From Acetilactobacillus jinshanensis (GTDB lineage: Bacteria > Bacillota > Bacilli > Lactobacillales > Lactobacillaceae), in the NCBI RefSeq assembly GCF_004359375.1, contig NZ_CP034726.1, forward strand, positions 372,001 to 436,000: 64,000 nt of DNA, in the 5' to 3' direction. How positions within the stretch are numbered: position 1 is the first letter of the stretch; each line of letters opens with the position of its first letter. Position numbers and translations under genes: made by a program. This document shows, piece by piece, positions 23,454 through 26,419 of this stretch. The notes below the pieces were generated by a model, which was given only the letters and a program-made list of their open reading frames with translations, was not told where the DNA came from and ran no database searches.

Positions 23454-25169
23454 ATGAGACAATCCAAAATGTTAATCCCGACGTTAAAGCAGAACCCGAA
23501 AGGTGCCGTTGCTTTAAGTCATATTATGATGTTACGAGGTGGCTATATCCATCAGGTTTCTGCTGGTATATATGCCTACTTGCCATTGGCTTATCGGGTT
23601 CTTGAAAAGATTGAAAAGATTATTAATGACGAAATGCAGAAGATTGGTGCCATTCGAATGTTGGTACCAACCTTATTACCCGCTAAGTTATGGAAAGAAT
23701 CCGGCCGTTTAAGTACTTACGGACCCGAATTATTTAAGTTAAAGAACCGTCGTGGTACTGAATATATCTTAGGACCAACCCATGAAGAAACCTTTACGGC
23801 TTTAATTCGTGATACCGTTAATTCCTATAAAGATTTACCATTAATTCTTTATCAAATCCAGTCTAAGTTCCGTGATGAAAACCGTCCTCGTTATGGCTTA
23901 TTACGAGGCCGTGAATTTCTTATGAAGGATGCTTATTCATTCTCCTTAAATGATAAAGATTTAGACCGAATCTATCACAATATGGATGTCGCTTATCGAA
24001 AGATTTTTGATAAGATGCAGTTACACTACCGACCAATCATTGGTAACGGTGGTGCCATGGGCGGATCTGATTCACAAGAATTCTCCGCTCCAGCTAAAGT
24101 TGGTGAAGATACCATCGTTTATTCTGATAAGGGTGATTATCAAGCTAACTTAGAAATGGCTACTAGTAAGTGCATTGCTAAAAAGCCTGACGTTGCACCA
24201 AAGAAATTAGTTAAGAAATCTTGTCCTAACACCAAGACGATTAAGAAGTTAGCTAAGTTCTTAAAGGTTGAACCAAAACAGATTATCAAGAGTGTTCTCT
24301 TTATTGCTAATAAGAAGAAACCAGTCTTGGTATTAGTTCGTGGTGACCATGATGTTAACCCAACTAAGATCCAGAACTTCTTAGGCGCTGACTTCTTAGA
24401 CTTAGCTACTCCTAGCCAGATTAAAAAGCTTGTGGGCTGTGTACCTGGTTACGTAGGCCCAGTTAATACTAACGTCAAGATTTTAGCTGATGATTACGTT
24501 AAGTACATGGTTAATACCGTTGCTGGTGCTAATGAAAATGACTATGATTACGTCAACGTCAACCCAGGCCGTGACTTTAAGGTTGATGCTTATGGTGACT
24601 TCCGTCTAGCTAAGGAAGGCGACGTTGCACCAAACGGTGTTGGTCATTTGAAGTTTACACCAGGAATTGAAATTGCCCATATCTTTAAGTTAGGCACTCG
24701 TTATTCTAAAGATTTAGGTGCTACCGTTTTGAACGAAAATGGTAAGCGAGTACCAGTTATTATGGGATGTTACGGAATTGGTGTAAGTCGTTTACTTTCA
24801 GCAATTGCTGAACAGCAGTCTGATGATAATGGCTTAGTATGGCCAATTTCAGTTGCTCCGTTTGATATTCATATCATTCCAGTTAACGTTAAGAATGATG
24901 TTCAAATGAACTTGGCATTATCCTTAGATAAACAATTAACTAAGGATGGCTATGAAGTCTTACTTGATGACCGAAAGAAGCGTGCTGGTGTTAAGTTCGC
25001 TGATTCTGATTTAATCGGAATCCCATTAAGAATTACCGTTGGCCGTGACGCTAAACAAGGTGTCGTTGAAGTTAAGATCAGAAAGACCGGCGAAACGGTA
25101 AAGGTTCGTAAAGACGAACTAGAAAACACCATTCCAATCTTTAGAAAAGAATTAAGTAATAACAAGTAA
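23454..25169 (+). CDS. proS: Prolyl-tRNA synthetase
   Basis: A 571-residue class II synthetase of the bacterial type with an editing insertion (about 225-390). Motif 1 and the N-terminal RQSKMLIPTLKQNPKGA are typical. Motif 2 is FRDENRPRYGLLRGREFLMKD (written here only as a landmark around 140-160), and motif 3 is GCYGIGVSRLLSA. GGGAGCG precedes the ATG. The N-terminal polC gene follows 38 bases later. Confidence 0.96.
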   Translation: MRQSKMLIPTLKQNPKGAVALSHIMMLRGGYIHQVSAGIYAYLPLAYRVLEKIEKIINDEMQKIGAIRMLVPTLLPAKLWKESGRLSTYGPELFKLKNRRGTEYILGPTHEETFTALIRDTVNSYKDLPLILYQIQSKFRDENRPRYGLLRGREFLMKDAYSFSLNDKDLDRIYHNMDVAYRKIFDKMQLHYRPIIGNGGAMGGSDSQEFSAPAKVGEDTIVYSDKGDYQANLEMATSKCIAKKPDVAPKKLVKKSCPNTKTIKKLAKFLKVEPKQIIKSVLFIANKKKPVLVLVRGDHDVNPTKIQNFLGADFLDLATPSQIKKLVGCVPGYVGPVNTNVKILADDYVKYMVNTVAGANENDYDYVNVNPGRDFKVDAYGDFRLAKEGDVAPNGVGHLKFTPGIEIAHIFKLGTRYSKDLGATVLNENGKRVPVIMGCYGIGVSRLLSAIAEQQSDDNGLVWPISVAPFDIHIIPVNVKNDVQMNLALSLDKQLTKDGYEVLLDDRKKRAGVKFADSDLIGIPLRITVGRDAKQGVVEVKIRKTGETVKVRKDELENTIPIFRKELSNNK

Positions 25170-25207
25170 AAATTCGTTAAGCATATCATATTTAGGAGGA
25201 TTGCAAC

Positions 25208-25822
25208 GTGGCCTCGTATCAGCATGATTTATTTAAGAAGCTAATCGAAAAATTACAGTTAACGACTCCATCTGCGCAAAAAGCTTTGCAGGACGGTTTG
25301 CTAACCGAATTAGTTATTCATGATCGATCCAATTTGTGGTCTTTTCAAATTACGTTGGCTTCGATTATGCCTTATAAGATATTTCAAGATTTTATGCAAC
25401 GTCTGCATAACGTCTTTGCCGGTTCATCTTTAAAGGTTACGTTCCATATTGACCAGCCTAAGGTTACCGATTCTTTGATTAAGGATTATTGGCTATGGGT
25501 CGTTAATAATTGCCATCTTTCATCAATCCTAAAGCAACAGCTAGCCAAAAACAGTCAGCTTAAAGTCACTAACGGTCAAGTATCACTAGATACCAAAGAA
25601 AGATCTCTTCGCAGTTTCTTAATGGACGGTGCTTTAGTTGATCTTGAAGATACGTATCATCAACTAGGCTTTCCGAATTTTAAGATTCATGTTGCTGGCG
25701 TTAGTTCTAAAAGGAATTTGCCGACTCAAGTTGTTGATTTTCCGATTAAGAAAACCAAGAGTGACGTTAAATTAGCTCGTGAAGCCGTTAAAGCCTTAGA
25801 TAACGACGAAAAGCCCAAATAA
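25208..25822 (+). CDS. polC: PolC N-terminal domain only (split or truncated polC)
   Basis: A 204-residue protein in the standard polC slot between proS and rimP. It matches the PolC N-terminal domain across its length: LVIHDRSNLWSFQITLASIMPYKIF, LIKDYWLWVV, YHQLGFPNFKIHV and a Lys-rich linker ending EAVKALDNDEKPK. PolC is normally about 1,430 residues with OB, PHP, exonuclease and polymerase parts; none follows here in any frame, as rimP begins 120 bases later. The GTG has a strong AGGAGG. Clean coding and a stop at a domain boundary favour a functional stand-alone protein over decay. The catalytic part must lie elsewhere or be a lost or misassembled segment. Confidence 0.88.
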   Translation: MASYQHDLFKKLIEKLQLTTPSAQKALQDGLLTELVIHDRSNLWSFQITLASIMPYKIFQDFMQRLHNVFAGSSLKVTFHIDQPKVTDSLIKDYWLWVVNNCHLSSILKQQLAKNSQLKVTNGQVSLDTKERSLRSFLMDGALVDLEDTYHQLGFPNFKIHVAGVSSKRNLPTQVVDFPIKKTKSDVKLAREAVKALDNDEKPK

Positions 25823-25834
25823 TTAAGGGATCGT

Positions 25835-25863
25835 TTGTTATTAGATAGTGGATATGATATGAT
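25835..25863 (+). promoter_or_regulatory. rimP operon promoter
   Basis: TTGTTA (25835-25840), 17 bases, then TATGAT (25858-25863) with an upstream TGA making an extended -10. It lies directly after the polC fragment and predicts a start near 25870, just upstream of a terminator-like hairpin. Confidence 0.65.
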
Positions 25864-25886: not shown

Positions 25887-25917
25887 AAAGAGTGAGCAGA
25901 AATGCTCGCTCTTTTTA
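25887..25917 (+). terminator. Terminator/attenuator in the rimP leader
   Basis: A 10-bp stem with one wobble (25889-25898 with 25903-25912), GAAA loop, then TTTTATT. It lies between the proposed promoter and rimP, so it would act on the nusA operon leader as well as end upstream transcripts. In B. subtilis nusA expression is autoregulated by attenuation in this leader; the same may hold here. Confidence 0.75.
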
Positions 25918-25942
25918 TTGGGCTCTTTAGGAGGGTTACGTG

Positions 25943-26419
25943 ATGAACAAAGTTGAAAAGATTGTCACTAACTTATTGCAACCGATTTTAAAAGATCTTC
26001 ATTTTAGTTTATATGATGTAAATTATTCGAAAAAAGGCCCTAAGTGGTACTTAAGCGTTTATGTCGATAAGCCCGCAGGCGGGATTTCGATTAATGATTG
26101 TGCGAAAGTTAGTGACAAGCTGGGAATGAAATTAGATAGTTTAGACCCGGATCCAATTCCACACGCCTATAATTTAGACGTTTCTTCTCCCGGTGCCGAA
26201 CGTCCTCTTAAAAAGCCTCAAGATTTTAAGAGCGCCATTAATCGATATGTACACGTTACGTTGTACTACCCAATTAAGAATCGAAAAATGTATGAAGGAT
26301 ATTTACAGAGCTATGATTCTAAGGATTTAGTCATTAAATATAATGACATGAGCGTTATGAGAGACGTTAAAATTCCTAGGAAAGCAATTGCCTTAGCTCG
26401 TTTAGCGGTTAAGTTATAA
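25943..26419 (+). CDS. rimP: Ribosome maturation factor RimP
   Basis: A 158-residue 30S assembly factor. It shows the YDVNYSKKGPKWYLSVYVDKP, SDKLG and LDVSSPGAERPL motifs of the family. The ATG at 25943 is favoured over a GTG three bases earlier by its distance from AGGAGGG. It heads a six-gene run through rbfA. Confidence 0.95.
   Translation: MNKVEKIVTNLLQPILKDLHFSLYDVNYSKKGPKWYLSVYVDKPAGGISINDCAKVSDKLGMKLDSLDPDPIPHAYNLDVSSPGAERPLKKPQDFKSAINRYVHVTLYYPIKNRKMYEGYLQSYDSKDLVIKYNDMSVMRDVKIPRKAIALARLAVKL

Follow-up and report, generated by a model that had tools for sequence, protein, structure and literature searches.

In Acetilactobacillus jinshanensis the chromosomal polC gene is truncated to its N-terminal domain, the body of PolC is encoded nowhere on the contig and DnaE is the single C-family DNA polymerase found there. 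We consider it fairly probable that the PolC body was lost from the chromosome, that the DnaE3-type DnaE replicates the chromosome and that the N-terminal domain was kept as a separate adaptor. PolC and DnaE are both held to be essential in Bacilli. A survey of 945 genomes by Timinskas and co-workers recognized, in the portions of the text available, three major polymerase combinations in which DnaE3 always accompanies PolC (PMC3919608). The three combinations are restated in passages of a 2026 survey of over 3000 species (PMC12926913), and excerpts of another paper describe DnaE3 as never being the sole replicase (PMC12309361). The A. jinshanensis assembly is an exception to these combinations. 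Its parts are known and their arrangement is unreported in the literature searched (titles, the beginnings of abstracts and passages, with few subscription papers), where no report of a Bacilli species lacking PolC was found. The result applies to one assembly of one strain, the sole genome of its genus compared, and to the chromosomal contig. The assembly is a single contig of 1,616,430 bases, estimated to be 99.94% complete and 3.19% contaminated.

Results

A 204-codon polC gene at the usual locus

The window (the whole 64,000-nucleotide stretch of the contig that was analyzed) contains the polC locus, and all features given here lie on its forward strand. The usual gene order is proS-polC-rimP, and A. 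jinshanensis keeps both flanking genes: proS (23454..25169, a 571-aa open reading frame) and rimP (25940..26419, 159 aa), with ProS and RimP matches found also in the polC loci of relatives. Between them lies a 204-codon gene (25208..25822) with a GTG start codon, read in the sequence 8 nt downstream of an AGGAGG ribosome-binding site (25194..25199). Its codon usage falls at the 42nd percentile among 262 genes of the genome. The encoded protein belongs to the PolC N-terminal region, with matches over the gathering score to PF14480 (PolC N-terminus I; residues 8-81, E 1.2e-11, 44.8 bits, cut-off 22) and then PF11490 (PolC N-terminus II; residues 93-202, E 7.6e-10, 39.2 bits, cut-off 26.3). It also covers positions 3-200 of the 1445 positions of NCBIfam PRK00448 (E 6.6e-17, 60.4 bits); the cut-off of 873 is that of a full-length model and a fragment necessarily scores below it. 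When it is aligned with 15 full-length PolCs from its family, the Lactobacillaceae, the protein ends within the charged linker that precedes the OB fold. The first-pass annotation had described the proS-rimP interval as holding only a PolC N-terminal gene, with a strong ribosome site and no frame damage, that ends at the domain boundary in a charged linker, and this description holds throughout.

The protein can be divided into subdomain NI, the first KH-like unit (residues 8-81, 25229..25450; PF14480, with a predicted block pLDDT of 93-98), the core of subdomain NII, the second KH-like unit (residues 87-165, 25466..25702; PF11490 and a VIA match to 4tps), and a charged tail that was formerly the linker to the OB domain (residues 167-204, 25706..25819; alignment and low pLDDT). 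A single helix is predicted in this tail, at residues 183-198. When 41 genomes were searched for the domain 40 gave a match, 38 of them in frames of 1432-1540 aa; the other two were a 692-aa piece in genome G007 and a 208-aa frame in A. jinshanensis. The sole miss was G035, in which the PolC body was found by another search. Note that in G007 (contigs C16 and C8) PolC and DnaE are each in two adjacent pieces, perhaps owing to frameshift errors in the assembly. A pattern search for a near-identical domain elsewhere returned 58 matches, none of which encodes a relative, although near records may be left out of such a search.

The spacer downstream of the truncated gene is of the normal kind. A hairpin followed by a T run in the rimP leader (25890..25916) lies 67 nt 3' of the stop codon. 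In 15 relatives the corresponding distance from the polC stop is 56-64 nt in 10, 83 and 111 nt in two and 451 nt in one, and the hairpin is absent within 600 nt in two. The element (GAGTGAGCA...TGCTCGCTC plus the T run) is thus found at most 600 nt from the polC stop in 13 of the 15, and the hairpin matched no Rfam family. Since the protein stops within the linker and the usual spacer follows, polC lacks its sequence from there up to approximately the former stop codon, and the neighboring genes are intact. rimP had also been credited with a promoter of its own. A promoter-like TTGTTA-17-TATGAT sequence is indeed present (25835..25863) and is partly conserved in an alignment of the window with four relatives, but by itself such a site does not exceed chance (two in the region, 2.3 expected).

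The PolC body is absent from the chromosomal contig

The PolC body model TIGR01405 had no match over its cut-off in the A. jinshanensis contig. Below it, exonuclease segments were matched in two proteins, a DinG-type helicase and a DnaQ-like protein of 178 aa, and DnaE gave weak matches. The polymerase core (PF07733) was found in one protein, DnaE, whereas each of four relatives has both DnaE and PolC, and a separate search for DnaE likewise gave a single match. The 204-codon gene is therefore not a PolC-type Pol III as defined by TIGR01405 and PRK00448, as it stops at residue 204 with no body, and a contig with a single C-family polymerase lacks the PolC plus DnaE3 pair. These negative searches tell against a PolC body elsewhere on the contig, which gives no support to the earlier suggestion of a split polymerase with its body encoded elsewhere; nor was a complete second polC, which the first-pass annotation had named as a possible refutation, seen on the contig.

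Of the 397 genomes drawn from the family, 391 had a PolC over the cut-off. The six below it were A. jinshanensis, G310 and G364, in which PolC is present in adjacent pieces, and G183, G189 and G204, which gave exonuclease matches only and are 65-76% complete. In the class draw PolC was over the cut-off in 395 of 398 genomes, and the best E value was 0 in every genome save A. jinshanensis, including the two others that fell below the cut-off. Plasmid records matching family PolC numbered 415, all with less than 60% identity to the family PolC used as query. Among them, PolC-like records from Pontibacillus, Priestia and Lactococcus (H12 and H14-H17) match only from residue 241-341 onwards. Judging from these alignments such plasmid PolCs may be without the N-terminal domain, a domain that is poorly conserved.

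The free domain has changed rapidly with its frame intact

Near-invariant positions were those common to at least 14 of 15 relatives, and each relative was tested likewise. The free domain has other residues at 11 of 35 such positions, whereas none of the 15 relatives does so at more than 4 of 34. In the same genome the departures are 20 of 213 for ProS, 11 of 59 for RimP, 16 of 140 for NusA, 33 of 327 for DnaE and 11 of 226 for DnaX (5-19%), and at most 4.9% for HolB. Note that the ProS of G015 and the NusA of G057 were evidently wrong gene picks, which distort the departure counts of those two genomes; they were left out of the branch-length comparison but kept in the survey of loci and protein lengths. 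In maximum-likelihood trees of 12-13 taxa the terminal branch of the free domain was 1.96, so long that its absolute size is poorly determined, against a median of 0.21 and a maximum of 0.59 for the others. This was the longest A. jinshanensis branch of the seven genes compared, those of ProS, RimP, NusA, DnaE, DnaX and HolB being 0.37, 0.56, 0.36, 0.78, 0.45 and 0.50, respectively. The ratio of mean distances was 2.23 for the free domain versus 0.93-1.58 for the six other genes.

Eighteen columns are nevertheless invariant across all 16 aligned sequences, that of the free domain included. In a toy simulation on the 204-codon gene, which ignored insertions and deletions, the frame was kept in 1.3% of the runs with 120 random substitutions. 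The domain has thus undergone accelerated evolution and has kept its frame. Accelerated change with frame and fold intact is what one would expect if the truncation is old and the domain has gone on working in an altered way. It also bears on the concern raised in the first-pass annotation that about 3.7 kb is missing from the assembly, since the mere loss of 3.7 kb would leave an ordinary N-terminus and the domain is strongly diverged; with DnaE remodelled as well, such a gap is unlikely.

DnaE and DnaX of A. jinshanensis are altered

The native DnaE is 1237 aa long versus a median of 1122 in 12 relatives. The segment that separates the HhH part from the OB part, counted as far as residue 1041, measures 174 aa versus 81-83 aa in the best 29 of 109 relatives, giving about 93 extra residues between the HhH and OB parts; the polymerase core is 455 aa versus 431-439 in the same best 29 of 109. 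The insertion matched no Pfam domain. In 17 of these best 29 relatives the HhH-OB stretch contains an S-x-x-[LMI]-F peptide approximately where DnaE has its clamp-binding motif. The A. jinshanensis stretch lacks this peptide and has only TPSLF (900-904) and QAVKVF (989); all three peptides are putative clamp motifs. The palm and catalytic motifs PDIDLD and KIDFLGLRNL are retained, and over its aligned part DnaE is not unusually fast (distance ratio 1.23). It is a DnaE3, assigned by its matches in 109-110 family genomes (the nearest with 55% identity over about 870 residues, 1-866) and by its motifs rather than by a tree. At the place where a His pair is expected the PHP start reads VIS, as it does in the four relatives shown; the active PHP motif is HHDHEH[C/H]DH, as given in an excerpt of the recent survey (PMC12926913). 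In three genomes of genus g44 (G045, G080 and G110) the DnaE matches start only at residue 290, and the open frames that contain them are 961-978 aa long, which would fit loss or strong divergence of the PHP domain.

The clamp-loader genes dnaX and holB are present in the genome. DnaX has a 3-residue insertion in its conserved C-terminal peptide that occurs in none of 13 relatives. The changes in DnaE and DnaX are those to look for in a take-over by DnaE, but they do not prove it.

Predicted fold of the domain

The N-terminal region of PolC is characterized by a pair of type II KH-like folds. It has reportedly been recognized as a distant relative of tau domain V, by Timinskas and Venclovas in 2011. 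A structure model of the 204-aa protein built on 48 named relatives had a mean pLDDT of 86.7 and predicts two KH-like units. In VIA the predicted unit of residues 87-165 matched an entry of SirA with DnaA domain I (4tps, chain D), with a Z score of 9.6 and an rmsd of 2.4 over 79 of 84 residues; from its length and numbering this chain is probably DnaA. Other DnaA N-terminal domain entries scored 7.9 and 7.3 and a DnaB-DciA entry 7.0, although by the tool's own note a Z score below 8 may reflect merely a common arrangement. Foldseek with the whole model gave weak matches (TM about 0.25), and neither program listed tau domain V among its structural matches. The likeness to DnaA domain I and other KH-like replication domains lies in the predicted fold of residues 87-165. 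It is a likeness of fold only, with no sequence relation shown, and says nothing of the partner.

Proofreading and strand asymmetry

A. jinshanensis has two RNase_T proteins versus three to four in seven relatives. Both have orthologues in the relatives, and no new exonuclease or proofreader was found among them. In a comparison with six of the seven relatives, the 178-aa DnaQ-like protein has changed at 9 of 74 invariant positions and the next relative at 8 of 73; the seventh, G048, had no called start and was omitted. The A. jinshanensis protein was considered as a remodelled proofreader and rejected, being an ordinary family orthologue that has changed little more than those of the relatives. 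MutS is present in the genome. Proofreading might be supplied by the DnaQ-like protein or the DinG-type exonuclease, or errors might be left to mismatch repair. According to the passages available of one paper, proofreading of DnaE errors in B. subtilis is done by the exonuclease of PolC, and DnaE and DnaQ of S. pyogenes are without interaction (PMC5627055).

Strand asymmetry at fourfold sites gave no clear signature in a comparison of 10 genomes. The GC contrast of A. jinshanensis was the lowest (+0.177 versus +0.253 to +0.504), as was its AT contrast (-0.092), with G113, which has PolC, close at -0.072. For A. jinshanensis 12 of 14 stretches passed the skew threshold, with the leading strand called from the skew itself. 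Lactobacillus is described, in the text available, as without a definite adenine bias (PMC4070872). The sign of the GC skew also flips weakly near 0.5 and 1.1 Mb (C1:560001-1060000), a pattern that an inverted central segment in an otherwise simple two-arm chromosome would give.

Discussion

The loss of PolC is probably ancient. The OB, PHP/exonuclease and polymerase parts and the clamp-binding tail would have gone from the chromosome so early that the partners left behind had time to change, leaving the native DnaE, of the DnaE3 type and the last C-family polymerase, to copy the chromosome as its presumptive sole replicase. That the body was lost and the domain kept suggests that the domain still occupies DnaX and hands its place to DnaE: the 204-aa protein would sit on DnaX/tau, bind DnaE as well and keep the polymerase at the fork. 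The first-pass annotation had offered either a split polymerase or a domain kept for its clamp-loader contact; the split is unsupported, and the second fits what remains, with the binding itself a literature proposal. As far as the parts of these papers available to us go, the PolC N-terminal domain has been proposed as the contact with the clamp loader (DnaX/tau) (PMC3919608), and the B. subtilis replisome has PolC bound to both DnaX and the clamp, with primer extension carried out by DnaE, which can do without its own clamp contact (PMC13220808, PMC12309361). The same kind of partial text describes B. subtilis DnaE as slow and error-prone, with no DnaE-DnaX contact mentioned there (PMC13220808), and reports a contact of DnaE with HolA, another clamp-loader subunit (PMC5627055). 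Given the HolA contact, the adaptor need not be required. We lean slightly towards regarding A. jinshanensis as having a fourth bacterial replicase arrangement, a sole DnaE3 remodelled between HhH and OB and held at the fork by a free PolC N-terminal adaptor.

Some results weigh against the main reading: DnaE changes at an ordinary rate over its aligned part, the genome has no new exonuclease and the strand contrasts show no clear signature. The rapid change of the domain is also expected of a vestige and counts against an adaptor. If PolC was lost and DnaE took over, the leftover domain could be a functionless remnant, evolving faster than the six other genes compared and departing at about a third of its near-invariant positions. 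This is unlikely, as the gene has an open frame, a strong ribosome site and typical codon usage, and the protein has its columns of full invariance and a confidently predicted fold; the simulated runs also rarely kept the frame, although the 120 substitutions are an assumed count rather than an estimate of those that followed the loss. It is a little less probable still that the domain has a PolC body to work with in trans, encoded by a plasmid or other replicon beyond the single-contig assembly. The plasmid PolCs that may be without an N-terminal domain make this a live rival. However, the body is nowhere on the chromosome, none of the matching plasmid records reached 60% identity to the family PolC, it would be unusual for a dispensable replicon to carry an essential replicase and the remodelled DnaE would be left unexplained.

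A new role for the domain, for example as a DnaX regulator or a competitor for the clamp loader, with DnaE reaching the fork by its own contacts, seems improbable. The residues gained by DnaE between HhH and OB, the HolA contact known in B. subtilis (in the text available; PMC5627055) and the occurrence of similar KH-like folds in DnaA domain I are all in keeping with it, but retention of the contact already proposed for full-length PolC is the simpler assumption and any specific partner is conjecture. Slightly less probable still is an assembly artefact that removed about 3.7 kb of polC. There is a single assembly and PolC is considered essential in the group, yet the reading frame closes properly within the linker, the spacer beyond it is an ordinary one, the domain is more diverged than in any of the 15 full-length PolCs and DnaE is remodelled in the same genome.

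Compared with the PolC plus DnaE3 system of the B. subtilis type, A. jinshanensis shares the polC locus, dnaX and holB and a native DnaE orthologue, and differs in that the body is absent and the N-terminal domain is a separate gene. With the DnaE1-only system of the E. coli type it shares a single C-family polymerase and a separate DnaQ-like exonuclease, but its polymerase is the Bacilli DnaE orthologue, with a PHP start that looks inactive from its residues, and its DnaQ-like protein is the ordinary 178-aa orthologue of the family. The free domain keeps both subdomains (PF14480 and PF11490) and the linker in the order found in PolC; it differs in being free-standing and strongly diverged at near-invariant positions.

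If the adaptor reading is true, a two-polymerase replisome can collapse to one. A natural organism with DnaE3 only would allow tests of what PolC is needed for, of how speed, processivity and fidelity are acquired by DnaE and of whether the N-terminal domain of PolC can serve as a clamp-loader tether on its own. A. jinshanensis would also be predicted to be naturally insensitive to PolC-directed inhibitors such as HPUra.
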